The translations under genes and the position numbers were made by a program. This document shows, in pieces, positions 147 to 55,538 of a stretch of DNA of 64,000 bases. Source of the DNA: Anderseniella sp. Alg231-50 (GTDB lineage: Bacteria > Pseudomonadota > Alphaproteobacteria > Rhizobiales > Aestuariivirgaceae); assembly GCF_900149695.1 (NCBI RefSeq), contig NZ_LT703005.1, forward strand, positions 310,013 through 374,012, written 5' to 3'. The notes beneath the pieces were generated by a model. That model searched no databases. It was not told where the DNA came from and was given only the letters and a program-made list of their open reading frames with translations. How positions within the stretch are numbered: position 1 is the first letter of the stretch; each line of letters starts with the position of its first letter.

Positions 147-1517
<1,371 letters not shown>

Positions 1518-9075: not shown

Positions 9076-10716
<1,641 letters not shown>

Positions 10717-14718: not shown

Positions 14719-15444
14719 ATGAAACTGTCTGCTCCCATCCATCACCTCAAGCGGCGTGCCAGGGCGCTTTCGCGCAAGGAAGCTGTTCCCCTCAGCAAGG
14801 CGCTGGACCGCATCGCCGCGCAGGAAGGTTATTCGAGCTGGAGCCTGCTTGCCACGCGCGCGGCTGCAGCAACGCCATCTGCCAAATTGCTGGCCCAACT
14901 AACACCCGGAGACCTTTTGTTGCTGGGCGCACGTCCCGGCCACGGCAAGACGCTGATGGGCCTTAAGCTGATCGTCGAAGCCATGAAACTTGGCCGCCGG
15001 GGCGTATTTTTCACACTGGAATACAGTGCGGCCGATGTTGTGTCCCGCCTCGAAGCCGTCGGTGGCGACATGGCAATGTTCACCGACCTTTTTGACTTCG
15101 ATAGCTCCGACGCAATCAACGCTGACTATATCATGGAGCAGCTGGCGTCTGCGCAACAAGGTACTGTCGTTGTCATAGACTATCTGCAGCTTCTGGATCA
15201 CAGGCGCAGTAATCCGGACCTGTTGGTCCAGGTTCGTGCACTGAAAGCATTCGCCCGCGATAAAGGCCTCGTCATCGTGTTCATTTCGCAGATCGACCGG
15301 TCCTATGATGCAAACACCAAACCGTGCCCGGATCTTGCCGATGTGCGCCTGCCTAACCCCCTGGACCTGTCCCTGTTCGACAAATCCTGCTTCCTGAACG
15401 ATGGCCGGATGCAGGTCGAAACGGCAAATCAGCACCCGCCGTGA
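14719..15444 (+). CDS. Small DnaB-like RecA-fold ATPase with N-terminal helical domain
   Basis: A 241-residue protein. The first ~50 residues (HHLKRRARALSR..ALDRIAAQEGYSSW) form a helical segment resembling the 'SHSEALE..A...GY..W' domain seen in some stand-alone proteins. Then comes a RecA/DnaB-type ATPase: Walker A GARPGHGKT, the DnaB-like FFTLEYSAADV, Walker B VVVIDYLQLL, and FISQIDRS, which resembles the DnaB sensor motif. The terminal DnaB arginine-finger region (K.R.G) is absent and the DnaB N-terminal domain is missing, so it is not a replicative helicase. A strong AGGAGG lies 8 nt before the ATG. It is divergent from phaC. Function unknown. Confidence 0.8.
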   Translation: MKLSAPIHHLKRRARALSRKEAVPLSKALDRIAAQEGYSSWSLLATRAAAATPSAKLLAQLTPGDLLLLGARPGHGKTLMGLKLIVEAMKLGRRGVFFTLEYSAADVVSRLEAVGGDMAMFTDLFDFDSSDAINADYIMEQLASAQQGTVVVIDYLQLLDHRRSNPDLLVQVRALKAFARDKGLVIVFISQIDRSYDANTKPCPDLADVRLPNPLDLSLFDKSCFLNDGRMQVETANQHPP

Positions 15445-15644
15445 GAAGCGGGTTCAAATTCGATCAAGCGTTCCGGCGACCTTGCACCGTAATGGATAAA
15501 GTCTGTCCACATTGTTGTCCATATTGCGCTGGATTGTTGCAAAGACGGCTTGCGACTTAACCTTGAGCATTCACAACTTGTGCGGCGGAAACAGTAGTCG
15601 CACAAGTTCCGGAGAATGTCTGGTCGTTCGCCTGGTTGTTGTAA

Positions 15645-16760
15645 TTGCCCTGGGTAGGACGGCACTTGAGAGTTCTTATTGTAGCAACACAGATCCTGCT
15701 CCCGGACACTCATGGTGGCTCCACCCATACCACCGAGGTTGTCGCCTGCCTGCGCAAGCTGGGCCCGGTCTGCTGTCTGGCGCAGCAAGGCTCATCAGGT
15801 GCGGACATTGCCGGGATCGGCAGCCCCGCAAGACATGCCCCTGTCATACGGACTTTGATGTCTGCTCTCAACTTGCCCGCGGCACTGAACACTGCCCGGG
15901 AATTTAAACCTGACGTGGTGTATGAGCGGGGGTCCTCCTATGGGCTTGGCGCCATGATCGCGATGCGTTTGAAGCTTCCGTTGATCACCATGGTGCTGGA
16001 TGAACAAGTCAGCCGCCTGTCCCTGCATCTTGCCAATACCCTTGTCGCAACACATCCCGGTCTTGTGCCCGCGAAATACCGCGACAAGGTTGTGCAGGTT
16101 TCCTGGGGCGCAAACTCCACACTGTTCCATCCCGACTGCCCGGCATCAAAATTACCCGATGGGATGGGCGGCAAGGCTCCGCTCCTTGTCTACGTGGGAT
16201 CGTTCAAGAAATGGCATGGGCTGGACCTGCTATTGCAGGCAATGTCGCAGCCATCACTGTGTAACGCCTGCGCATTGCTGGTCGGTGACGGGCCGTTACG
16301 CCGGGGTCTGCAGCATCGCGCGAAGGAAATGGGCATTGCCGGGCGGGTGCACTTCACCGGTGCAGTTCCCTATGCCAGTGTGCCGGGATTTGTGGCCGCG
16401 TCTGATGTGTGCATCGCCCCGTTTGATCCGCACTCTCACCGGCCTTCAGGTGAAGGTTTTGTACTGGATCCGTTGAAGATCTTTGAGTATCTGGCGATGG
16501 AAAAGCCCACTGTGACCATTAAATCTGAAAACATCGAAGCGCTGTTTGAGGACCATGTACACCTCCGCCTGTACCACCCTGGCCATCTGTTCGGGCTGGT
16601 TGAGGCAATCAGTTCTCTCCTGACCGAGCCGGGCAAGGGCCGGACAATGGCGGGAGCCGGACGTAAAAAGGTGCTGGCCTCGCACACTTGGGAAAAACAT
16701 GCCGACCATCTTTATCGTCTTTTTGCTGAAGCGGCCGACAACCGGCATGCAGGCAGGTAG
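15645..16760 (+). CDS. GT4-like glycosyltransferase
   Basis: A 371-residue GT-B glycosyltransferase. The N-terminal half begins RVLIVATQILLP..HGGSTHTTEV, and the C-terminal donor-binding half has LLVYVGSFKKWHGLDLLLQA, LLVGDGPLRRGL, VHFTGAVPYASVPGFVAASDV and the E-x7-E-like region PLKIFEYLAMEKPTV. It probably adds a sugar from a nucleotide-sugar to a lipid or polysaccharide. The start may be TTG at 15666, which has TAGGA upstream, rather than ATG 15645. The 200-bp gap after the ATPase gene is AT-richer and contains no other gene. Confidence 0.85.
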   Translation: MPWVGRHLRVLIVATQILLPDTHGGSTHTTEVVACLRKLGPVCCLAQQGSSGADIAGIGSPARHAPVIRTLMSALNLPAALNTAREFKPDVVYERGSSYGLGAMIAMRLKLPLITMVLDEQVSRLSLHLANTLVATHPGLVPAKYRDKVVQVSWGANSTLFHPDCPASKLPDGMGGKAPLLVYVGSFKKWHGLDLLLQAMSQPSLCNACALLVGDGPLRRGLQHRAKEMGIAGRVHFTGAVPYASVPGFVAASDVCIAPFDPHSHRPSGEGFVLDPLKIFEYLAMEKPTVTIKSENIEALFEDHVHLRLYHPGHLFGLVEAISSLLTEPGKGRTMAGAGRKKVLASHTWEKHADHLYRLFAEAADNRHAGR

Positions 16761-16815
16761 ACCAGGTGTCGCCAAGCGTTCAAAACAACATCACTGCCCC
16801 CTGATCGAGCCGGGT

Positions 16816-17793
16816 TCAACCGGGCTGGGCGCGTTCTTTCCGCATTCCTGCAGCAATCAATCCATAGATGGCTACGACTGCTATCAGGAACGCGACAACC
16901 TGATGGTTTTCTATCCGGTCACCCAGGAAGATCACGGCCAACACCATGGTCAGCGCCGGCCAGGGTGCCGCAATCGAACTGGCCAGCGAAACATCGATGT
17001 GCCTGACTGCGTAAAACCAGACCACCAGCTCGAGGTAATAGACCAGCCCCATAACCGCTGCAAAAACCTGCAAGTCCGCACGCGTCAGTGTCTCCCGGAA
17101 ATTGCCGGGCCCGGCCAACGCCGTGACGCAAGCCAGAAACACTGCGGAAATCGCAACACGAAACAGTGTAACCTGAGCCGGTGTTATGGCAGTGCGTCCC
17201 AGTTCCTCCTTGATGAGCACATGAGCGATGCTCCACAGAAATGGCACGCCAAGTGCGGCCAGGAACCATGGAGAAAACCCGTCAATTCGCCAGCTTCCTC
17301 CGGTACCGAGATAGTACAGCGTGCCGACAAGCGCCGCCGTCAGCGCAAGCTCCACAACCGTCTTGCGGCGCTTCAGGAACAATGTCTCCCACAGGATCGC
17401 AAACAGCGGATACGCCTGGATAGCGATGGCGGCACTGACGGCTCCGGCCTTCTCGACGCCGAGGACATAAAGATATGTCGACAGTCCGAACATCATGCCG
17501 GTGAGCAACGTCACAGTGACGGTTCGAAACGTTCCATGCTCCCGCCCGCGCGCTGAAAAAATGCCACCGTTGCCTGACCTGATCTCCCACAGGAACAATG
17601 GCAAACCGAACAATACCTGCCAGATGGACAGGAACAACGCGAAGCTGAGCGCACTGAATTCCACAGGCCGGCTGTTGGCGATGATCGGCATTGCACCAAG
17701 AATGCACAGGCACACCAGCGCCAGCATTGTCCCGCGTCCTGTTCCCGAGTTCAAAATGCCGTCCTCCCGTGTAACTGGGTGCAGCAGCTGCAT
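16816..17793 (-). CDS. EamA/DMT-family transporter
   Basis: An integral membrane protein of 325 residues with about ten hydrophobic helices and the duplicated EamA (DUF6) architecture; the second half ends with ALTMVLAVIFLGDRIENHQVVAFLIAVVAIYG, typical of drug/metabolite transporters. The transported compound cannot be inferred. Start uncertain: the ATG at 17793 adds 22 polar residues before the first helix, and ATG 17727 begins directly at MLALVCLCI. It is convergent with the preceding glycosyltransferase. Confidence 0.83.
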   Translation of the reverse strand: MQLLHPVTREDGILNSGTGRGTMLALVCLCILGAMPIIANSRPVEFSALSFALFLSIWQVLFGLPLFLWEIRSGNGGIFSARGREHGTFRTVTVTLLTGMMFGLSTYLYVLGVEKAGAVSAAIAIQAYPLFAILWETLFLKRRKTVVELALTAALVGTLYYLGTGGSWRIDGFSPWFLAALGVPFLWSIAHVLIKEELGRTAITPAQVTLFRVAISAVFLACVTALAGPGNFRETLTRADLQVFAAVMGLVYYLELVVWFYAVRHIDVSLASSIAAPWPALTMVLAVIFLGDRIENHQVVAFLIAVVAIYGLIAAGMRKERAQPG

Positions 17794-18005
17794 CGCCGGA
17801 CAAAGGATCCGGGGGCCGTTTGAAACGGCACTTCCTGGAACTGCAGCGTGGCGTCACCGGATACACTGGAATCTATTACCGCGATCGCAGCAGGGTCTGC
17901 CGTATGGCGGGTTCCAATAAGGCAAAAACATCAAACTGCCGTGTTATTCAGCAATTTGATCTGCGCTGCATCTTTCCGTTTGTGTTGGTTGCAAAAAGTC
18001 GGATT

Positions 18006-18941
18006 TCAACCGCGGTGCTGTTTCATATGCCGCCAACCGGCCATGACGTCTTTCCAATTCTCTATGAATGCCTGCTGTGACGTGTTTTGCTCAATCCAGC
18101 CACGGGGGTTGCAGGAGGTCTCACCCAGGCGATCGAGAAATGAGCCGACACACTCTATCAGCCCTGATCGGCGGCCATAGACTTGCCCGACGTCGACAAT
18201 CCCGACATCCAGCGGTTCGCCATCCCGCATCAGGCCGACACGGGTAAACAGACACGGAAGTCCCATGGCCATCGCCTCATTACAGACAATGCTGTTGCCT
18301 TCATAGCGGCTCAGATGCATGAACGCACAGGCCTTGCGCATGCGCTCGGGCACTTGCGCCGGGCAGCAGGAAAGCGGCTCGAATGTCCAGTCAGGCAGAG
18401 CTGCGCGCAGGACGGGATAAATATCACGGCCCTTGTGTCGTGAACGCCCGTCGTGAAGAACCAGTTTCGACCCATGGTTGTCCAGCCTGCCGTCGAACAG
18501 GTTTATGTCGACCGCATGATAGACGACGTGCTGCGCCTGATTACCGTATCGTCTTGCGAACTCGTCTGAAATCCATCTGGCGCAGGCAACCCAGAGTGTG
18601 GATGGTCGCCGTGCAGCCCGCGCCTGCTGGCGCGCCAGCGACCAGTCCGTCCACGACCTGGTGATGAATTTCTTCTCAGCCGCCACACCGTGCTGAAATC
18701 CGATCACCGGGTATCCGTCCGGCCAGTCCAGAACCAGGTGATTGTCACAAACCACCGGCAAACCGTCCGCCACTGCCCGCTGCATGGCCTGCGAGCCGGG
18801 GCCGTCGCTGCGGCTGTCGAGGAACTGTACATCCTCGAAGGCGAGCTTCAGGCTCCTGGCGAATGCCTCTACCCCACCGGTCCGGTGCTCCGGGTTGAAA
18901 CGCCCATAATGAATGAGGGTGCCTGGAACTTTTCTTATCAA
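18006..18941 (-). CDS. Glycosyltransferase (GT4-like, group 1)
   Basis: A 311-residue protein with a C-terminal GT-B pattern: HVVYHAVDINLFDGR, LVLHDGRSRHKGRDIYPVLR and the donor-site segment MHLSRYEGNSIVCNEAMAMGLPCLFT. The N-terminal acceptor domain is short and divergent (LIHYGRFNPEHRTGGVEAFA). The only in-frame upstream start is TTG 18941 (after AGGCGG, 5 nt spacing), preceded by an in-frame stop. With the FkbM gene upstream it forms a small glycan-modification pair. The acceptor is unknown. Confidence 0.8.
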   Translation of the reverse strand: MIRKVPGTLIHYGRFNPEHRTGGVEAFARSLKLAFEDVQFLDSRSDGPGSQAMQRAVADGLPVVCDNHLVLDWPDGYPVIGFQHGVAAEKKFITRSWTDWSLARQQARAARRPSTLWVACARWISDEFARRYGNQAQHVVYHAVDINLFDGRLDNHGSKLVLHDGRSRHKGRDIYPVLRAALPDWTFEPLSCCPAQVPERMRKACAFMHLSRYEGNSIVCNEAMAMGLPCLFTRVGLMRDGEPLDVGIVDVGQVYGRRSGLIECVGSFLDRLGETSCNPRGWIEQNTSQQAFIENWKDVMAGWRHMKQHRG

Positions 18942-19018
18942 GTCAACCGCCTGCCATCACTTCGGAAACTGCCGCTCACCTGGCATGAGTTGGTCCCCGG
19001 ACTCCAGAACAATGTGTA

Positions 19019-19702
19019 TCACGGGCGAATGAAACCGTACTCACGCCCGCTCTGTGACACATGGAATATGCGGTATCCGGCATTCTTCAGGCTGGCCACC
19101 GAGCGGGCTGTGTCGCTGATGTCAAATCCGTACTTTCCATGGTGAAACTCAACCAGCAGCTGCGCCGGCCGGATCGGACCCGACAGGATGTCGGCAATCA
19201 CCCGATATTCGAAACCCTCGACATCCAGCTTCAGGATATCCGGCAGTGCGCAAGCAAGATGGCTCACGATGGATTCAAGCCGCATGACATTGGCGGTAAT
19301 CGAAAACTGCCCCTCAGCAGACGGCGCGGGGTTAATTGCAAATGAGACATGCTCAGGATCGGGAGGTGAATATAGTTGCACCTCTCCGTCGGCCTGATCG
19401 ATCCCGATCGGATGAAACATCAGCTGTTCAGGCAGGTTCAGGCCTTTTATCCAGGCCACACTCTTTGGCGTAGGATCAAACACCCACACATTGCAGCCAA
19501 ACCGCTCGATTGCAGCCAGGTCGAAACTGATGTCGGCACCCGCGCCAAAGGAAAAGACTGTTGTGCCTGGGCCAACGTCACTGACTGCGACAGGCCAGCC
19601 GCCGTAATCGCTGCCAAGCACTTCATACTCAACGGAAATATCGGTTTTCGACCATCGCCGCTGCGACCGGCCATCGGCAAAGCGCTTTAACCTCGAAAAC
19701 AT
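19019..19702 (-). CDS. FkbM-family methyltransferase
   Basis: A 227-residue SAM-dependent methyltransferase. It shows the FkbM pattern: TTVFSFGAGADISFDLAAIERF (SAM loop), VWVFDPTPKSVAW, the substrate segment LPDILKLDVEGFEYRVI, and a C-terminal YRIFHVSQSGREYGFI. Such enzymes often O-methylate sugars of surface glycans or polyketides. ATG 19702 was chosen, with AGGAAAG upstream; the open frame reaches 19819 but the extra residues are not family-like. It lies about 80 bp upstream of a glycosyltransferase on the same strand. Confidence 0.85.
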   Translation of the reverse strand: MFSRLKRFADGRSQRRWSKTDISVEYEVLGSDYGGWPVAVSDVGPGTTVFSFGAGADISFDLAAIERFGCNVWVFDPTPKSVAWIKGLNLPEQLMFHPIGIDQADGEVQLYSPPDPEHVSFAINPAPSAEGQFSITANVMRLESIVSHLACALPDILKLDVEGFEYRVIADILSGPIRPAQLLVEFHHGKYGFDISDTARSVASLKNAGYRIFHVSQSGREYGFIRP

Positions 19703-19824
19703 GCAGCCACTTTCCTGGCTTCGGGTGATTGAATGCAAACTGAATTTCGAAACGCTAGATAAGTCCACCCAATACGTGCAAAATAATGGCCGTGACGGTA
19801 CACGCATCCGTAAAGGCAAATCAC

Positions 19825-46668: not shown

Positions 46669-47973
46669 ATGACGGAAACAAACCGCACCGCCAAACTCAG
46701 CCTGGATGGCAAAGATTATGAACTGGCCGTTCACAAGGGCAGCATCGGGCCAGAGGTTATTGATGTGTCCAAACTCTACAGCAGCACCGGCGCATTTACC
46801 CTGGACCCCGGCTTCACCTCCACAGCGAGCTGCGAATCAACCATCACCTATATCGACGGTGACGCAGGTATGTTGCTGTACCGCGGCTATCCTATCGACG
46901 AATTGGCCGAACACGGCGATTTCATCGAAACCTGCTACCTGCTGTTGTACGGCAACCTGCCGAATGCCGCCCAGCGCAAGGAATTTGAGACCGCAATTAC
47001 CTATCACACCATGATCCACGAGCAGATGAACCGGTTCTTTGCCGGCTTCCGCCGTGACGCCCATCCAATGGCCGTGATGGTCGGCGTGGTCGGTGCTCTG
47101 TCCGCTTTCTATCACGACTCAACCGACATTGCCGATCCGGCCCAGCGCGAAATAGCCGCGCGCCGGATGATTGCCAAAATCCCGACCATTGCCGCAATGG
47201 CGTTCAAGTATCACATTGGCCAGCCGTTCGTTTACCCACGCAATGACCTGGATTTTGCCTCCAACTTCCTGCGTATGTGCTTTGCTGTGCCGTGTGAAGA
47301 CTACAAGGTGAACCCGGTTCTGGCCCGCGCCATGGACCGCATTTTTATTCTTCATGCCGATCATGAACAGAATGCATCAACCTCGACCGTGCGCCTGGCA
47401 GGCTCATCTGGTGCCAATCCGTTTGCCTGTGTCGCAGCCGGCATTGCCTGCCTGTGGGGCCCGGCTCATGGCGGTGCCAACGAAGCTGCTCTTGAGATGT
47501 TGAACGAGATCGGCACGGTCGACCGTATTCCGGAATTCATCGATCGCGCCAAGGACAGGAACGATCCGTTCCGTCTGATGGGCTTCGGTCACCGGGTCTA
47601 CAAGAACTACGACCCGCGCGCCAAGATCATGCAGAAGACCGCGCATGAAGTTCTCGACGAGCTTGGCATTACCGATGATCCGCTGCTTGATGTTGCCCGA
47701 GAGCTGGAAAAGATAGCGCTCGAAGACCCTTACTTCATCGAGAAGAAGCTGTACCCGAATATCGACTTCTATTCCGGCATCACCCTGCGCGCGCTCGGAT
47801 TCCCGACCTCGATGTTCACTGTACTGTTCTCGGTCGCCCGCACGGTGGGCTGGATTGCCCAGTGGAAGGAAATGATCGAGGATCCAACCCAACGCATCGG
47901 GCGCCCGCGCCAGCTCTACACTGGCCCGACCGAACGCGGCTACGTTCCGGTCACGGAGCGCAAGGACGACTGA
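46669..47973 (+). CDS. gltA: Citrate synthase
   Basis: A 434-residue type II citrate synthase of the TCA cycle. Key regions: [37 protein letters not shown] with catalytic His, [15 protein letters not shown] with catalytic His, [16 protein letters not shown], and [21 protein letters not shown] with catalytic Asp-equivalent region. SD GAGAGGA precedes the ATG. In Brucella, Sinorhizobium and relatives gltA borders the lpxB end of the lpx block; here it converges directly on fabZ. Confidence 0.98.
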
Positions 47974-47997
47974 AGAGTATTTGGCAATTAGTGCTGG

Positions 47998-48459
47998 TCA
48001 GCTGTCGCTGGCCAGCATGGCCCCGATGTCGGCCTGGGCCACCTTGACGCCATCCACTTTCGCTTCACACGAGAATTTGTAGACAGGCCCGCGCTTCTGG
48101 GTTTGCTCAACGTGGAAATGCACCACATCACCGGGCCCGACGGGCTTGCGGAACTTGGCGTTATCGATGGTCATGAAGAACACCAGCTGGCCAGCCGCTT
48201 CAACCCCCATATGATCCAGCGCCAGCGCACCAGCGGTCTGGGCCATGGCCTCGATCAGCAACACGCCCGGCATCACCGGCCGGGCCGGAAAATGCCCCTG
48301 GAAAAACGGTTCATTGATGGTGACGTTCTTGATGCCGATACACGACTGATCGCCATCCATGTCGACGATCCTGTCGACCAGCAGAAACGGATAGCGATGC
48401 GGCAAAAGCTGCATGATGCGCGCGATATCTGCGCTCCTGAGTGTCTTTGTGTCTGACAT
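47998..48459 (-). CDS. fabZ: (3R)-hydroxyacyl-ACP dehydratase
   Basis: A 153-residue hotdog-fold dehydratase of fatty-acid synthesis. The catalytic His is in [14 protein letters not shown] and the Glu in [28 protein letters not shown] is typical. Start ATG 48459 (MSDTKTLR) is chosen on family length; the frame opens at 48546. It lies between bamA and convergent gltA. In related genomes lpxD precedes it and lpxA, lpxI and lpxB follow it; none is present here. Confidence 0.96.
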
Positions 48460-48486
48460 GGTTTGCCCCGGCAAGTTGACAATAAC

Positions 48487-48514
48487 AAAGGCGGCACCGT
48501 ACAGCGCCGCCTTT
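48487..48514 (-). terminator. Hairpin terminator between bamA and fabZ
   Basis: An inverted repeat AAAGGCGGC..GCCGCCTTT with a 10-nt loop sits in the 110-bp gap. It ends in TTT on the minus strand and can act in both directions. It would stop bamA transcription, so fabZ likely uses a promoter of its own. It sits where lpxD would be expected. Confidence 0.65.
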
Positions 48515-48569
48515 TCAGTATTAGGTACAACAGCTTGCGGGTACAAGCTGAATCAATCCCCCAGAAACC

Positions 48570-50957
48570 CTAGAAGCGTGTGCCAACCGAGAAACGCACA
48601 AGCTCGGTTTCGTCGAAGCTTTCCTTCAGGATCGGATACGCCACATCAAGGCGCAACGGACCGAACGGTGATTTCCAGATCACGCCGGCACCGACGGCGG
48701 CACGGAACGCGATGCTTTTGCCAACGACATCACAATCGGCAATTGCGGCAACGTTGCTTGGAGGCCCGCTATTAGCCAGACAACCATTTCCGTCACCTTG
48801 CGTTCCGCTACTTTCAGGTGCACCGAATGCTGTACCGAAGTCGGAGAACACGGATCCTTCAAGACCAAATGATTCCGGCAGGCCAAGCGGGAAGGTCACT
48901 TCCAGCGTGCCGATGGCATAGGTCGTACCCCCGAGCGAATCGAATTCACCATCAAACTCGTTGCGCTGACGTGGTCCGATACCTGACCGGGCAAAACCGC
49001 GCAGTGTGTCGCCACCCTTGAAGAACCGGTCAAGGATCGGCACATCGTCACCGCCCGGGAACGGTTCGATGTGACCGGCATTGCCTTCAACTTTCAGCAC
49101 AACCCCGTCAAACAGCAGCGGCATGAAATAGTGGGCTGACGCATCGACGCGTGCCCATTCCACATCGCCGCCAAGGCCGGCAACCTCGACATTGACCTTG
49201 GCCCGGACACCGGACGTCGGCTGGCTTGGATGGTCAAGATCCGAATACACATAGGTCAGACCGACCTTGGAAATGATATCCGTGCCTTCGGAATCGCGGA
49301 TTGCCCGCGACGCATCCTCAACTCTTCCAACATCAATGTCGCGATAGGTCAGGGAGTACTTGCCGAAAATCGAGTTGTAATCGTCCAGCCGCGTGCCAAG
49401 CCGCAGGGCGCCACCGACCTGTTGGGTTGTAAACGACGACTCGTCCTCAATATCGGTACGGCTGCCGAACACATCGACACCGGCCGAGATATCGCGATCT
49501 AGGAAATACGGATCGGTGTAACTTGCGTTGACCGATTGCCGCTTGAAACTGAGTGAGGTGGAAACACTCGCCCGGTTACCGGTACCCAGCAGGTTCCGCT
49601 CGGATACCGAAATCGAGCCGATGGCCTGTTCCGTGGTGGAATAACCGGCTGAGAAGTTGATCGTACCAGTGGATTTCTCGACGACATCAATCACCACGAC
49701 AGCAAGGTCAGGCGCACTGCCTTCTTCCTGGCGGATGTCAATCTTCTCGAAAAAGTCCAGGCCTGTCAGGCGGCGCCGCGCGCGGTCGATGAGGATGCGG
49801 TTGTATGCATCGCCTTCGACGATGTTCAGCTCACGCCGGATCACCTCATCGAGGGTGCGGACATTGCCCACAATGTCGATCCGCTCAACGTAAACCCGCG
49901 GGCCTTCATCGAGGTTGTAAGTGATGCTGAGCTGGCGGCTGACCGCATCCCGCTCAATCTTCGGCCGGGCACGTGCAAACGCAAAGCCGGACTTGCCGGC
50001 TTCCAGCGTCATCTTCTCCACAGACTTGTCGACCTTGCTGGCATCGTACACGTCGCCAACCGTCTCCTGCACTGCGCCTTGCAGCGCCTGCGGATCAATT
50101 GAGGTGTTGCCGGTGTTCACAGCCACATTGCTGATCGTGTACTGGGGACCTTCGTTGATCACGAATGAGACCGCAAAGTTGGTTCCGTCCTGAAGCAGTT
50201 GCGCATCAGCGGAAAGTATTTCCACATCGGCAAAACCATTCTTCAGATAATGACGGCGCAGCAACTCCTTGTCGAAGTTCAGCCGGTCCGGGTCATATGT
50301 GTCCGTGGTCGAGAAAAACTTCCACCACGCAGACTCTGACGTCGTGATAACCGAACTCAACTGGCTGTCGGAAAAAGCCTGGTTGCCCTGGAACTGAATG
50401 CTCTCGATACCGGTTTCGGCACCTTCATTGACGACATAAACCAGGTTCACCCGGTTCTGGCCGAGCCGGTCGAGGCGTGGCGATACGGTTGCGTTGAAAT
50501 AACCGGAGCGGCGATACAGGGTCTGGATGCGCTGCACATCCTGCTGGGCACGAGCACGGGTATAGATCGTGCGTTCCTTCAGCCTGATTTCAGTTTTGAG
50601 CTTCTTGTCATCCAGTTCGTCGTTGCCCTGGATCTTGACCTCGTTGACGAGCGGATTTTCGTCGACCTGCACCACAACCGCAGAACCGCGACGGAACATC
50701 CGCACATCCGAGAAAAATCCGGTCTGGAACAATGCTTTTACAGACGCATCAATCTGGGCGTCGGTAACCTGCTCACCCGCATTGAACTGCATGTAGGCCC
50801 GGACTGTATCGGGCTCAACACGTGCATTGCCTTCGACAATAATGCCGGTGATGGCTTGCGCAAAGGCCACCTGCGGCGCTGCCAACTGCACAGCGGCCGG
50901 CAACACAACTCCCATTGCCAACATCAGTTTGGCTGTTTTTACTAACGAATTGCCCAT
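48570..50957 (-). CDS. bamA: Outer membrane assembly factor BamA
   Basis: A 795-residue outer-membrane protein of the Omp85 family. A signal peptide (LMLAMGVVLPAAVQLAA..AFA) is followed by five POTRA domains (about 30-410) and a 16-strand barrel with characteristic VFGSRTDIEDES and the terminal ELVRFSVGTRF. It folds other beta-barrel proteins into the outer membrane. The start at 50957 gives the correct signal peptide; the frame extends to 51005. It follows rseP on the same strand. Its presence shows the cell has an outer membrane. Confidence 0.95.
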   Translation of the reverse strand: MGNSLVKTAKLMLAMGVVLPAAVQLAAPQVAFAQAITGIIVEGNARVEPDTVRAYMQFNAGEQVTDAQIDASVKALFQTGFFSDVRMFRRGSAVVVQVDENPLVNEVKIQGNDELDDKKLKTEIRLKERTIYTRARAQQDVQRIQTLYRRSGYFNATVSPRLDRLGQNRVNLVYVVNEGAETGIESIQFQGNQAFSDSQLSSVITTSESAWWKFFSTTDTYDPDRLNFDKELLRRHYLKNGFADVEILSADAQLLQDGTNFAVSFVINEGPQYTISNVAVNTGNTSIDPQALQGAVQETVGDVYDASKVDKSVEKMTLEAGKSGFAFARARPKIERDAVSRQLSITYNLDEGPRVYVERIDIVGNVRTLDEVIRRELNIVEGDAYNRILIDRARRRLTGLDFFEKIDIRQEEGSAPDLAVVVIDVVEKSTGTINFSAGYSTTEQAIGSISVSERNLLGTGNRASVSTSLSFKRQSVNASYTDPYFLDRDISAGVDVFGSRTDIEDESSFTTQQVGGALRLGTRLDDYNSIFGKYSLTYRDIDVGRVEDASRAIRDSEGTDIISKVGLTYVYSDLDHPSQPTSGVRAKVNVEVAGLGGDVEWARVDASAHYFMPLLFDGVVLKVEGNAGHIEPFPGGDDVPILDRFFKGGDTLRGFARSGIGPRQRNEFDGEFDSLGGTTYAIGTLEVTFPLGLPESFGLEGSVFSDFGTAFGAPESSGTQGDGNGCLANSGPPSNVAAIADCDVVGKSIAFRAAVGAGVIWKSPFGPLRLDVAYPILKESFDETELVRFSVGTRF

Positions 50958-51127: not shown

Positions 51128-52246
51128 TCAGGTCAAGTCATTCCATGTCGCGAAGACCATTAGCGCAATAACAAGCGCGAATCCCACCTTATATCCAAAT
51201 TCCTGCGCCTGTGCGCCCAACGGCTTTCCCCTTACCGCTTCGAAAAAATAGTACATAAGATGCCCGCCATCCAGCATCGGAATGGGAAAAAGGTTAATCA
51301 AACCTATAGAGACCGACAGCACAGCCGCCAGGTGAATCAGTGCTAATATGCTTATTGAGGCCGCTTCGCCCGCTATCTGGGCTATTTTAATGGGTCCCGA
51401 CAGCTGATCTGCCGCTTCATGGCCGACTATCACGCCCTTCAAATATCCCAAAGATCGGGTGATAATGAACCAGGTTTCATCCGCAGCCCTTGCCACGGAC
51501 GCACCGAATCCCAGTTTTTCGACGCGTACCACCTGGTTCGAACCGCGCGAGACACCCAAAAGGCCGATGCGCATCTTGTTGCCCGACGGATCGTCGATCT
51601 CGGTGGATTTGGGTGTGGCGCGAAGTTCGATTGATTCTCCGGCACGGTCGACTTTGAACACCAAAAGCGTGCCTGCGGAAACCGAAACGATCCGCTGAAC
51701 GTCTGTAAACGATTCGATCTTGCGGCCGTCAATCTCGGTAATCAGGTCGCCTGTCTGGAACCCGGCCTCAGACGCCGCCGAATTTTCCACCACAGAGGCA
51801 ACTTTCGGCTGGGTAATCGGAATGCCTGCCAACATGAACATCAACGCGAAAATCACGATGGCCAGTATAAAGTTGGCCACAGGTCCTGCCACCACGATCA
51901 ATGCCCGGCGCCACAGAGTAGCCGCATGGAAATCGCCCGGTTTGGATGCGGCCATTGCTTCTTTCGACGGCATGGACGCCGCATTGGCATCACCGGCAAA
52001 TTTAACGTAGCCCCCCAATGGCAGCCAGCCGATTTTCCAGTGAGTGCCGTAGCGGTCCATAAACCCGCCGATGGACCGGCCAAAACCGATAGAGAAAGTT
52101 TCGACTCTCACACCACACAGTCGCGCCGTTTTGAAGTGCCCGTACTCGTGCACGAAAACGATAACCGACAGGACCCCGATGAAAGCGACGACTGCCAAGA
52201 CGACTTCAAACACCGAACCAGTCAAAAAAGCACCGAAATCCATCAA
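51128..52246 (-). CDS. rseP: Site-2 zinc metalloprotease RseP
   Basis: A 372-residue inner-membrane protease. HEYGH (33-37) in the first helix and the second motif PMLDGGHLMYYFFE form the zinc site; a PDZ domain lies at about 125-215 (VVENSAASEAGFQTGDLITEIDGR). It cleaves transmembrane anti-sigma factors in envelope stress. Position between bamA and dxr is standard. ATG 52246 or 52243 are both usable. Confidence 0.95.
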   Translation of the reverse strand: MMDFGAFLTGSVFEVVLAVVAFIGVLSVIVFVHEYGHFKTARLCGVRVETFSIGFGRSIGGFMDRYGTHWKIGWLPLGGYVKFAGDANAASMPSKEAMAASKPGDFHAATLWRRALIVVAGPVANFILAIVIFALMFMLAGIPITQPKVASVVENSAASEAGFQTGDLITEIDGRKIESFTDVQRIVSVSAGTLLVFKVDRAGESIELRATPKSTEIDDPSGNKMRIGLLGVSRGSNQVVRVEKLGFGASVARAADETWFIITRSLGYLKGVIVGHEAADQLSGPIKIAQIAGEAASISILALIHLAAVLSVSIGLINLFPIPMLDGGHLMYYFFEAVRGKPLGAQAQEFGYKVGFALVIALMVFATWNDLT

Positions 52247-52411: not shown

Positions 52412-53599
52412 TTAAGTGTGCAAGCGGCTTGCCAGTTCTCCCGCCTTGGTGCGCGCATATGAATCCGCTTGCCATACGTCGTCAAGTGAAGACATTGAAA
52501 CAATCATGTTTTCGCGCTCGGCCTGGTCGATTGTATCGGCTACGAGCCGAGTTATATCAAGAAAACGCAGCTTTTCCTGCAAAAATGCCGCAACCGCGAT
52601 TTCATTTGCGGCATTCAGGATGGTGGTCGCATTGCCCCCCCTGGCCAGTGCCGAGCGGGCCAGGTCAATCGCGGGAAACCGGTCATTATCCACCGGCTCG
52701 AATGTCAGGCTGCCGATCTGTGCCAGATCGAGCCGGTCGACGGGTGCCGAAATACGCGCAGGATGAGCCATTGCATAGGCGATCGGCGTGCGCATGTCCG
52801 GCATGCCCAACTGCGCAATAACCGAACCGTCCACGTAAGACACATAGGAGTGAATGATCGACTGTGGATGCACGACCACATCGATTTTTTCAAGGGCAAC
52901 CGGAAAAAGGTGATACGCTTCAATGAATTCCAGTCCCTTGTTCATCAAGGTAGAGCTGTCGATTGTTATTTTCTGACCCATCGACCAGTTGGGATGTTTC
53001 AACGCTGATTGCAGCGTTGCTGTCTCCAACTGTTTCATGGACCAGGTGCGAAACGGGCCACCCGACGCGGTCAGTGTCAACCGGTCAACACCATCGGTGT
53101 TGTGTTCTTCAAAACACTGGAACAAGGCGGAATGTTCGCTGTCCACCGGAATAACCGTGGCGTCATGTTGCGCTGCAGCCCTGGTAAACACTTCAGCACC
53201 TGAAACAAGGCATTCCTTGTTGGCCAGGGCAATCGTGGTGCCCTGCTCCACCGCAGCCAGGGTCGGTTTCAGTCCGCTCGCTCCCACAATTGCGCCCATC
53301 ACCATATCGACAGGGCGCGCCGCAGCTTCAATTACGGCACTCTCGCCTGCTGCAACTTCTATTCCGGAACCGGCCAATGCATCTTTCAGGTCACCCAGCA
53401 AGGAATCATCCGCCGTTACCGCCAACTTCGCATTGAACTCGCGCGCATCCGCCGCCAGTTGCGCGACATTGCGGTTGCCCACCAGTGCATCAATAGTGAA
53501 GGTGTCCCGGTGGTGGCGCACGATGTCAGTTGTTGACTGGCCCACGGACCCGGTGGAGCCAAGAATACTGAGGGACCTGGTGCCCGATGAATTACTCAT
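52412..53599 (-). CDS. dxr: 1-deoxy-D-xylulose-5-phosphate reductoisomerase
   Basis: A 395-residue NADPH enzyme making MEP in the non-mevalonate isoprenoid pathway. ILGSTGSVGQSTTDI binds NADPH, VDSEHSALFQCF and TASGGPFRT contribute the active-site, and KITIDSSTLMNKGLEFIEA is present. Isoprenoids from this pathway feed the adjacent uppS. Gap to rseP is 166 bp and to cdsA 55 bp. Confidence 0.97.
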   Translation of the reverse strand: MSNSSGTRSLSILGSTGSVGQSTTDIVRHHRDTFTIDALVGNRNVAQLAADAREFNAKLAVTADDSLLGDLKDALAGSGIEVAAGESAVIEAAARPVDMVMGAIVGASGLKPTLAAVEQGTTIALANKECLVSGAEVFTRAAAQHDATVIPVDSEHSALFQCFEEHNTDGVDRLTLTASGGPFRTWSMKQLETATLQSALKHPNWSMGQKITIDSSTLMNKGLEFIEAYHLFPVALEKIDVVVHPQSIIHSYVSYVDGSVIAQLGMPDMRTPIAYAMAHPARISAPVDRLDLAQIGSLTFEPVDNDRFPAIDLARSALARGGNATTILNAANEIAVAAFLQEKLRFLDITRLVADTIDQAERENMIVSMSSLDDVWQADSYARTKAGELASRLHT

Positions 53600-53654: not shown

Positions 53655-54509
53655 TTACCAGACCACAAGCCCGCTGGCCACGGCTTCCTGCCCTCCGCGG
53701 GCATATCCAAATGCCGCAGCCGCAACAGCGGCGAATATCAATCCGTCAACTCTGTCCAGAACCCCGCCGTGACCTGGAATGATCCGGCCGGAATCCTTGA
53801 CCCCAAACCGGCGCTTGGCTGCAGATTCAAAAAGGTCCCCGAGTTGTTCCAGAACTGCAAGCACGGCACCGGCCACCAGCAATGGCCATAACGTCGGCAG
53901 AGCCGAATACCATCCCATAAAGGCACTCGCGACCACACCACCGGTAACGGCACCAAGCAGTCCTGCCCAGGTCTTGTTGGGTGAAATTGTCGGTGCCAGC
54001 TTTGGCCCGCCAATCAACCTGCCAAATACGTAAGCCAGCGTATCGGCACTCCAGACTACCGCAAACAGCCACAACACCGCAAACAGGCCGTACTCCGGAG
54101 ATTGCCGGATCAGAATCAGGGCCAGGCCGGGCAAGGCGATATAGGGAACTCCCCACCAGGCCCAGCGTGACCCGGATTTACTTCGCAAGACTTCACTTGC
54201 CAGACTCATCGCCCAGCACGCCGCTATGACCTGGAGAGCAGTTGTGGTGTCGGAGCGTGACACCACCAAAACGGCACCAATTGCCGCCAGCGCATGCAGT
54301 GCAAACTGAAACTGTGACCCGCGATGCACAATCCGGCACCATTCAGCAGCCATGATTGCCGCTATCATCGCAATACCCAGCTCGAACCATACACTTCCCG
54401 CCCAGACATCAAGCAATGCGATTGGAATCAGCACCAGGGCCGCTGCAACCCGCACGGCGAGTTCACGTGTTATGAAACGCCCGGCGGGTTTGTTCGCGGA
54501 TGACATCAT
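53655..54509 (-). CDS. cdsA: Phosphatidate cytidylyltransferase
   Basis: A 284-residue polytopic membrane enzyme making CDP-diacylglycerol for phospholipid synthesis. About eight helices are seen, and the signature region SPNKTWAGLLGAVTGG..DLFESAAKRRFGVKDSGRIIPGHGGVLDRVDGLIF includes the CDP-alcohol-site residues. Starts are ATG 54509 or 54506. It sits between uppS and dxr, in the usual order. Confidence 0.95.
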   Translation of the reverse strand: MMSSANKPAGRFITRELAVRVAAALVLIPIALLDVWAGSVWFELGIAMIAAIMAAEWCRIVHRGSQFQFALHALAAIGAVLVVSRSDTTTALQVIAACWAMSLASEVLRSKSGSRWAWWGVPYIALPGLALILIRQSPEYGLFAVLWLFAVVWSADTLAYVFGRLIGGPKLAPTISPNKTWAGLLGAVTGGVVASAFMGWYSALPTLWPLLVAGAVLAVLEQLGDLFESAAKRRFGVKDSGRIIPGHGGVLDRVDGLIFAAVAAAAFGYARGGQEAVASGLVVW

Positions 54510-54572: not shown

Positions 54573-55358
54573 TCAAGCCAGCGCGGCGGCATTGACACAT
54601 CCGCCGTAACGACGTTGGCGGTGGGAAAATTCGGCAATGGCGCGTTTGTAGATTTCAGCATCAAAGTCAGGCCAGTGCTCATCAACAAACACCAGTTCGG
54701 TATAAGCCATTTGCCACAGCAGGTAATTTGAGATGCGCTTTTCGCCGCTGGTGCGGATTAACATGTCAGGTTCGGGCACGTCAGGAACGTACATGTGCGC
54801 TGCAAAACACGCTTCATCGATCTCTTCCGTCGACATCTCGCCACGGGCGACTTTCTCCGCGATCGCCCGCGCGGTCCGCGCGATCTCCGTGCGTCCGCCA
54901 TAGTTGAATGCAACCACGAGGTTGAGCCGGTTGTTCAACGCCGTGATCTTCTCGCATTCCTCGATCATCTCGACGATGTCGTCATCCAGCCGGTCGCGTT
55001 CCCCAATCACCCGGATACGCACACCTGCCGAATGCAGTTCCGCGACATCCTGCCGGATGAACCGTCTAAGCAGGGAGAACAAATAAGTGATTTCAGCTTT
55101 GGGCCGGCGCCAGTTCTCGGATGAAAACGAGAAAACCGTCAGATACTCGGTGCCTTGTTCTATTGCTGCTCGCACCAGCCGCCTGACGGCATCCACACCA
55201 TGGCGATGGCCTTCGGTTCGCGGCAACGACCGCTGCGTGGCCCAGCGGCCGTTTCCATCCATGATAATCGCGACATGACGCGGATCAGCAGCAACCGACG
55301 GTTCCTCACCTGCCGGGCGGGGTGCAACCACATGGTCCAGAACAGCTTTTTCCTGCAT
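54573..55358 (-). CDS. uppS: Undecaprenyl pyrophosphate synthase
   Basis: A 261-residue cis-prenyltransferase producing C55-PP, the lipid carrier for peptidoglycan. IIMDGNGRWA binds the diphosphate, FSFSSENWRRP and AFNYGGRTEI are further motifs, and the Glu of LIRTSGEKRISNYLLWQMAY is seen. ATG 55358 is taken; GTG 55370 adds four residues. The 168 bp to frr contain no gene. Confidence 0.96.
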   Translation of the reverse strand: MQEKAVLDHVVAPRPAGEEPSVAADPRHVAIIMDGNGRWATQRSLPRTEGHRHGVDAVRRLVRAAIEQGTEYLTVFSFSSENWRRPKAEITYLFSLLRRFIRQDVAELHSAGVRIRVIGERDRLDDDIVEMIEECEKITALNNRLNLVVAFNYGGRTEIARTARAIAEKVARGEMSTEEIDEACFAAHMYVPDVPEPDMLIRTSGEKRISNYLLWQMAYTELVFVDEHWPDFDAEIYKRAIAEFSHRQRRYGGCVNAAALA

Positions 55359-55538
55359 CAAAGTCTTCACTCAATCTGCCCCTGGATCAGGATGGTTTTT
55401 GTCTGGATCAACCAAAATCCATAAACCTGATCACTTCTAAAGTGTTAGACCAACTTTATCGGTTCCGCGAACCCGTGGTACTCTAATCTTTCCCGCCCCG
55501 CATGTTGCGAACAAGCGCGGCCTCCGCATGCTGACACC

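Follow-up and report, generated by a model that had tools for sequence, protein, structure and literature searches.

A family around Anderseniella lacks lipid A genes and keeps an Lpt bridge that may serve sphingolipids

We analyzed a 64,000-nucleotide stretch of the genome of Anderseniella sp. Alg231-50 (contig NZ_LT703005.1, positions 310,013 to 374,012; hereafter the window), in which the lipid A genes lpxD, lpxA, lpxI and lpxB are missing from their usual place around fabZ, between bamA and gltA. Below, G denotes genomes (G000, the window genome), f GTDB-level families (f1, the family of the window genome) and L the loci that were read. From the sequences compared, it is likely that this lineage has lost the lipid A (Raetz) pathway together with the standard LptF/LptG, and that sphingolipids form its outer leaflet, exported via an LptB2-F2G2 complex followed by LptC, LptA and LptD. 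With somewhat less assurance we lean towards a broader proposal, that the Lpt machine is not bound to lipopolysaccharide (LPS): in f1, and perhaps in six more families, the inner-membrane pair would have been swapped so that the whole bridge including LptD exports sphingolipids, lipid A would have been discarded more than once, and one genome, G143, would have been caught shortly after doing so.

Contig 3 of an 8-contig assembly of 4.6 Mb (99.39% complete) contains the window, whose bamA has its closest named match, at 91% identity, in a metagenome-assembled genome labelled Anderseniella sp. A preliminary description had bamA followed by fabZ after 110 bp holding a terminator hairpin, and fabZ converging on gltA 24 bp away; the coordinates, open reading frames (ORFs) and sequence agree with this, as does the order rpsB, tsf, pyrH, frr, uppS, cdsA, dxr, rseP, bamA, of which the first four were named by look and the others by Pfam. 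The hairpin (12 pairs, 48514-48487, minus strand) is terminator-like, the scan for such hairpins giving 4 sites against a mean of 3.3 in shuffles. The start of fabZ at 48459 was chosen by us, and the longest ORF would begin at 48546. When two sets of LpxD, LpxA, LpxI and LpxB (eight tblastn queries, identities confirmed by Pfam) were run against the whole window, no lpx gene was found (best E 0.14). In the sequence that follows bamA in 32 further family genomes the best match had an E of 0.11, and the block is missing in 33 of the 33 readable family genomes, a count that leaves out G003, G019 and G028 as unreadable and includes G008, G011, G016 and G035 with only 0.9 to 1.3 kb. fabZ follows bamA in 30 of the 33; after bamA of G006, G015 and G027 no fabZ was recognised either, and in some family genomes, G012 and G022 among them, fabZ and gltA are separated by 2 to 3 kb of other DNA. 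The same queries recovered bamA-lpxD-fabZ-lpxA-lpxI-lpxB in the control loci L023-L026 and the lpx block in G037, G054, G055, G059, G062, G066, G067, G068 and G127; this arrangement is found in f7 and most other families read. An lpx-free bamA-fabZ junction was also seen in stretches from f5, f36, f37, f38, f47 and f15, and G070 (f36) has bamA-gltA without lpx and with no fabZ recognised at the junction. Because the lpx-free junction recurs in so many relatives, the earlier impression that the lpx genes had been precisely excised fits well. In G065 (L189), lpxD-fabZ-lpxA-lpxI is present and no lpxB was recognised before gltA.

The loss extends over the whole genome. Profile searches, counted above the curated cut-off, were made in 60 genomes, namely 36 of f1 including the window genome and 24 from outside f1, each from a different family of the order. 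LpxC, LpxB, LpxD and KdtA were each found in 0 of the 36 family genomes, versus 22, 19, 21 and 19 of the 24 others, respectively; all four are absent also from f5 (G039) and f15 (G049). These profiles detected E. coli and Caulobacter among the controls, and BamA relatives were found in 57 of the 60 genomes. Below the cut-off, there was an LpxC match in G014 (20.6 bits versus 27) and LpxD matches in G012, G022 and G030 (21-22 bits versus 30.8). Thus, of the "loss or relocation of lipid A synthesis" considered at the outset, loss stands and relocation is rejected on the four profiles, lpxA, lpxK, lpxI, msbA and kdsA not having been searched genome-wide; with lpxB, lpxC, lpxD and kdtA all absent, a complete lpx set elsewhere was not found. 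The suggestion of an outer membrane with perhaps no LPS gains support from the same absences (36 of 36 genomes). The family genomes range from 2.0 to 7.2 Mb. Many Rhizobiales have the order pyrG-kdsA-eno; among the scanned ORFs of the window no kdsA was recognised between pyrG (9076-10704, minus strand) and eno (147-1421, minus strand), no genome-wide kdsA search having been made, and a second LPS gene, one for Kdo, may have been lost from the same window.

On the other hand, the Lpt export machine is retained. The preliminary description expected lptD to disappear with the lpx genes, which proved wrong: the window genome encodes LptB, LptC, LptA, LptD and one LptF/LptG pair, with lptC-lptA-lptB preceding rpoN and lptD-surA-pdxA-ksgA adjoining pepA. 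Across the family, LptD was found in 34 of 36 genomes (not in G003 and G020), LptC in 35 and an LptF/LptG family match in all 36. What is missing is the standard lptF-lptG between pepA and lptD, in all five family genomes read there (G000, G007, G012, G022 and G025), where pepA abuts lptD, and also in G049; in G041, which has both systems, the order is pepA-lptF-lptG-lptD. Because lptD, lptC, lptA, lptB and one lptFG pair are kept without lpx, the outer membrane is probably not bare, and its outer lipid is more likely a sphingolipid. The single-contig genome G022 has two LptD genes (G022:C1:3056798 and 5299692), and surA, pdxA and pepA lie beside only one of them.

The sole LptF/LptG pair of the window genome (G000:C1:2050378-2052623) lies inside a ceramide cluster, whose other members are a fatty acyl-AMP ligase, an epimerase-family reductase, an acyl carrier protein, a serine palmitoyltransferase (SPT), a phosphoesterase, an acyltransferase that we call P0001, an ATP-binding cassette (ABC) exporter and a protein of the Asp/Arg beta-hydroxylase family. 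The SPT scores 569 bits against an NCBIfam equivalog cut-off of 500, and its nearest solved chains are serine palmitoyltransferases; the acyl-AMP ligase is also above its NCBIfam cut-off. From their kind and place we take the reductase and P0001 to be the counterparts of CerR and ceramide synthase in Caulobacter; no curated model names either. P0001 relatives occur in 34 of the 36 family genomes, and LptF2/LptG2 adjoin the P0001 gene in stretches from seven families without LpxC (f1, f5, f15, f36, f37, f38 and f47) and from the lpx-bearing f7. A lipid kinase match was seen in 11 of 13 family clusters read (not in G000 and G017) and a CDP-alcohol transferase match in 8 of 13. Near the cluster of the window genome, L057 holds a fatty-acid hydroxylase family gene (2032-2859) and the Asp/Arg beta-hydroxylase family gene (14799-15596), of the family to which LpxO belongs; the two may hydroxylate ceramide.

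In a tree of LptF and LptG (76 rows, Caulobacter's own proteins not included), each protein forms two groups, one encoded next to lptD and the other within sphingolipid clusters, and every cluster copy from f1 belongs to the clades of the second group. The LptF of the window genome reaches 187 bits against an NCBIfam equivalog cut-off of 230 for standard LptF, and its LptG 195 against 240, both falling short. Three additional LptF-like rows, two from G025 and one from G041, sit on long branches, their place being uncertain. A charge reversal in LptG at the basic pair after the first membrane helix was considered as a substrate switch and given up as alignment-dependent; in pairwise alignment to solved LptG chains, the basic pair can be kept with a one-residue shift.

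Absence of lipid A genes and presence of the cluster go together across the order. Among the 60 genomes, P0001 relatives were found in 36 of the 38 without LpxC versus 2 of the 22 with it. In a wider sample of 199 genomes drawn evenly across the order, which are not independent of each other, LpxC is present in 167 and missing in 32; with a threshold of 48% identity, P0001 relatives were detected in 22 of the 32 without LpxC versus 3 of the 167 with it, all three from f7. At E ≤0.001 the matches number 24 of 32 versus 25 of 167, and many of these weaker ones may be paralogues. The exceptions include G193 and G155, incomplete metagenome-assembled genomes (MAGs; 58% and 56%), the former having the lpx block although LpxC is missing.

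How many times lipid A was lost was examined with a tree of seven proteins. It groups the window genome with G007 and G012, apart from Parvibaculum, which has a full lpx block. NCBI places Anderseniella in Parvibaculaceae; its family in the genome taxonomy (f1) includes Taklimakanibacter and Thermopetrobacter. At least four changes are needed to explain the 30 LpxC-less rows among 60, and a single loss for all LpxC-less families is not supported. A topology constrained to a single clade of 18 LpxC-less rows from the main group, excluding f7, was rejected (approximately unbiased test, p 0.0016), this group having been named after the tree was seen. The rows of f51 and G100 join on long branches and their place is unsure. 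L035, whose record is titled Rhizobium sp. Q54, forms a long branch outside the rest of the order, and its label is possibly wrong.

Two families bear on the order of events. In f7 (G127), a full lpx block and the sphingolipid cluster occur together, the state expected before loss. In f34, G143 carries a relic of lpxD (L190:7452-7955, residues 110-282 of 347) between bamA and fabZ, and its lpxA, lpxI, lpxB and LpxC are gone, while its sister G068 keeps the lpx block; both carry the sphingolipid cluster with LptF and LptG. G143 is thus a case of recent lipid A loss. Since the lpx-bearing relatives f7 and G068 already have the cluster, in both cases that offer a close relative, the sphingolipid system and the second LptF/LptG probably came first and the lpx loss after. 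G041 (LpxC and KdtA, no LpxB or LpxD) was considered as a half-way stage and rejected; its lpx block is probably unassembled, because BamA is missing there too, and its family mate G127 has a complete block.

These observations suggest the following route. Ceramide would be made at the inner membrane, a head group would then be added (a lipid kinase gene is present in most family clusters), and the product would perhaps be flipped by the ABC exporter of the cluster. LptB2-F2G2 would extract the sphingolipid from the inner membrane, and LptC, LptA and LptD would pass it on to the cell surface. Because the lipid A genes and the standard LptF/LptG are gone, LptB, LptC, LptA and LptD most likely serve the sphingolipid-linked pair.

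Several observations speak against this reading. A second LptC of the Caulobacter kind was not found, the one LptC match in the window genome being in the lptCAB-rpoN locus. More than two LptF/LptG matches occur in five family genomes (G008, G009, G021, G025 and G029), G049 also has an LptG that groups with the standard type, and in G017, G025 and G034 LptG2 is in the cluster and LptF2 was not recognised there; the check that no pair exists besides that of the cluster covered f1 and G039, not f36, f37, f38 and f47. The match of P0001 to GNAT in Pfam is marginal and NCBIfam gives nothing, its name as a ceramide synthase coming from place and kind, and no P0001 match was found in G014 (82% complete) and G031 (98% complete). 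SPT is included in the stretches of 11 family clusters among the 13 read (not G007 and G010) and in none of those read from f15, f37 and f47. The cluster of the window genome (L057 3907-15596) is without the genes for lipid kinase, CDP-alcohol transferase and nucleotidyltransferase that most relatives carry, the rest of the genome not having been searched for them, so its head group may differ from theirs. Finally, neither LpxC nor a P0001 relative was found in any of the five sampled genomes of f51 (G085, G121, G154, G182 and G206) or in G100 (f21, 1.4 Mb), and lpx-free bamA-fabZ junctions were read in G085, G121 and G100; lpx loss is thus not always coupled to sphingolipids.

Such points lend some weight to another explanation, in which lipid A is lost and the kept bridge carries a glycolipid or a lipid-linked polysaccharide, sphingolipids being minor or exported otherwise. 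f51 and G100 live without lpx and without a P0001 relative, the cluster of the window genome lacks phospho-head-group genes, the window contains glycosyltransferase genes (15645-16760 and 18006-18941), and it is from sequence that we infer the transport role of LptF2/LptG2. We nevertheless consider this explanation unlikely, since the only LptF/LptG pair of the window genome is within the ceramide cluster, the pair adjoins the P0001 gene in every one of the seven LpxC-less families read, and the cluster copies form clades of their own. Continued lipid A synthesis, from lpx genes that moved elsewhere or diverged strongly and escaped the profiles, is very improbable; the genome-wide profiles covered LpxC, LpxB, LpxD and KdtA but not lpxA, lpxK and lpxI, and weak matches below the cut-off exist in four family genomes, yet all 36 family genomes are negative for four different steps, the same profiles are positive in 19 to 22 of 24 others, and in the wider sample of the order LpxC was found in 167 of 199. 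The chance that the block is absent from the assemblies only, by an artefact of assembly or binning, is negligible. Many genomes are MAGs and gaps do occur, as in G041 (without LpxB, LpxD and BamA) and G193 (without LpxC at 58% completeness despite its block), but in the window, as in many relatives including G012 and the single-contig G022, bamA, fabZ and gltA share one contig and no lpx gene separates them, and for the window genome the intact junction already refutes an artefact.

Table 1. The lpx-free locus of the window and its neighbours (window positions)
Feature	Position	Strand	Basis
gltA, citrate synthase; convergent, bounds the lost block	46669..47973	+	ORF; Citrate_synt (Pfam); same neighbour in lpx-bearing relatives
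fabZ-gltA junction, 24 bp; lpxA-lpxI-lpxB site of lpx-bearing relatives	47974..47997	.	sequence; controls such as L131
fabZ, 3-hydroxyacyl-ACP dehydratase	47998..48459	-	ORF; FabA-like domain (Pfam); matches fabZ of relatives' lpx block
bamA-fabZ junction, 110 bp; lpxD site of lpx-bearing relatives	48460..48569	-	sequence, hairpin scan, comparison
bamA, outer-membrane protein assembly factor	48570..50957	-	ORF; Omp85 and POTRA domains (Pfam)
rseP, conserved neighbour upstream, used for the species tree	51128..52246	-	ORF, Pfam
dxr, beyond rseP	52412..53599		ORF, Pfam
cdsA, beyond rseP	53655..54509		ORF, Pfam
uppS, beyond rseP	54573..55370		ORF, Pfam

Elsewhere in the window, a possible small region for surface sugars (15645-19819) combines two glycosyltransferase-like genes with genes for an EamA transporter and an FkbM methyltransferase.

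Sphingomonas already provides a known case of sphingolipids replacing LPS. New in the present data are a probable natural replacement throughout a family of Hyphomicrobiales, the exchange of LptF/LptG while the bridge is kept, the repeated excision around fabZ, the lpxD relic, six more LpxC-less families with a similar cluster, and more than one loss; no report of the family-wide case, the LptF/LptG swap, the repeated excision or the relic was found in the literature searched, which leaves most subscription journals outside. A lineage whose only LptF/LptG is sphingolipid-linked, and which retains LptD, LptA, LptC and LptB, offers a genetic test by nature of sphingolipid transport, without LPS interfering. 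The data also show that several lineages of one order, their genomes of normal size, have lost lipid A genes. They likewise caution against assuming LPS in the group of Anderseniella, whose named strains are open to chemistry.

Among known systems, Wolbachia and its relatives are Alphaproteobacteria without lipid A genes and live inside cells (PMC3087551); the family described here differs in its genomes of 2.0 to 7.2 Mb, in including some named strains and in keeping the Lpt genes. Compared with the standard LPS system, LptB, LptC, LptA, LptD and an LptF/LptG pair are all encoded, the pair not being of the lptD-linked type. Sphingomonas is without LPS; sphingolipid synthesis seems essential in S. 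koreensis, and orthologs of the Caulobacter cluster occur in S. wittichii and Z. mobilis, spread over 6 or 10 regions (PMC11324152). Sphingomonas and Zymomonas (Sphingomonadales) resemble the present family in that Sphingomonas is LPS-less with sphingolipids, while here lpx genes are absent and ceramide genes present; they differ in belonging to another order and in their scattered genes, most of which are here in one cluster.

Another parallel is Caulobacter crescentus. The same paper describes five ceramide genes with a second LptF and LptG (CC_1168-CC_1152), states the route of sphingolipids from the inner to the outer membrane as unknown, and suggests transport by LptC2/F2/G2 analogous to that of LPS, untested there (PMC11324152); the ceramide kinase was shown biochemically in a second paper (PMC10331486). 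Caulobacter makes lipid A, and a mutant without LPS survives (PMC11324152; PMC10331486). Compared by description, with no Caulobacter sequence used, the family here likewise has LptF and LptG homologues inside a ceramide cluster, and the lipid kinase and CDP-alcohol transferase of most family clusters, both absent from that of the window genome, resemble the phospho-head-group genes of Caulobacter. Unlike Caulobacter, with its LptC2, the window genome yielded no second LptC, and the lpx genes have disappeared, as has the standard lptFG in the genomes read, which leaves the second set on its own. The natural pattern seen here thus fits, and extends, the proposal of an LptC2/F2/G2 exporter made for Caulobacter.

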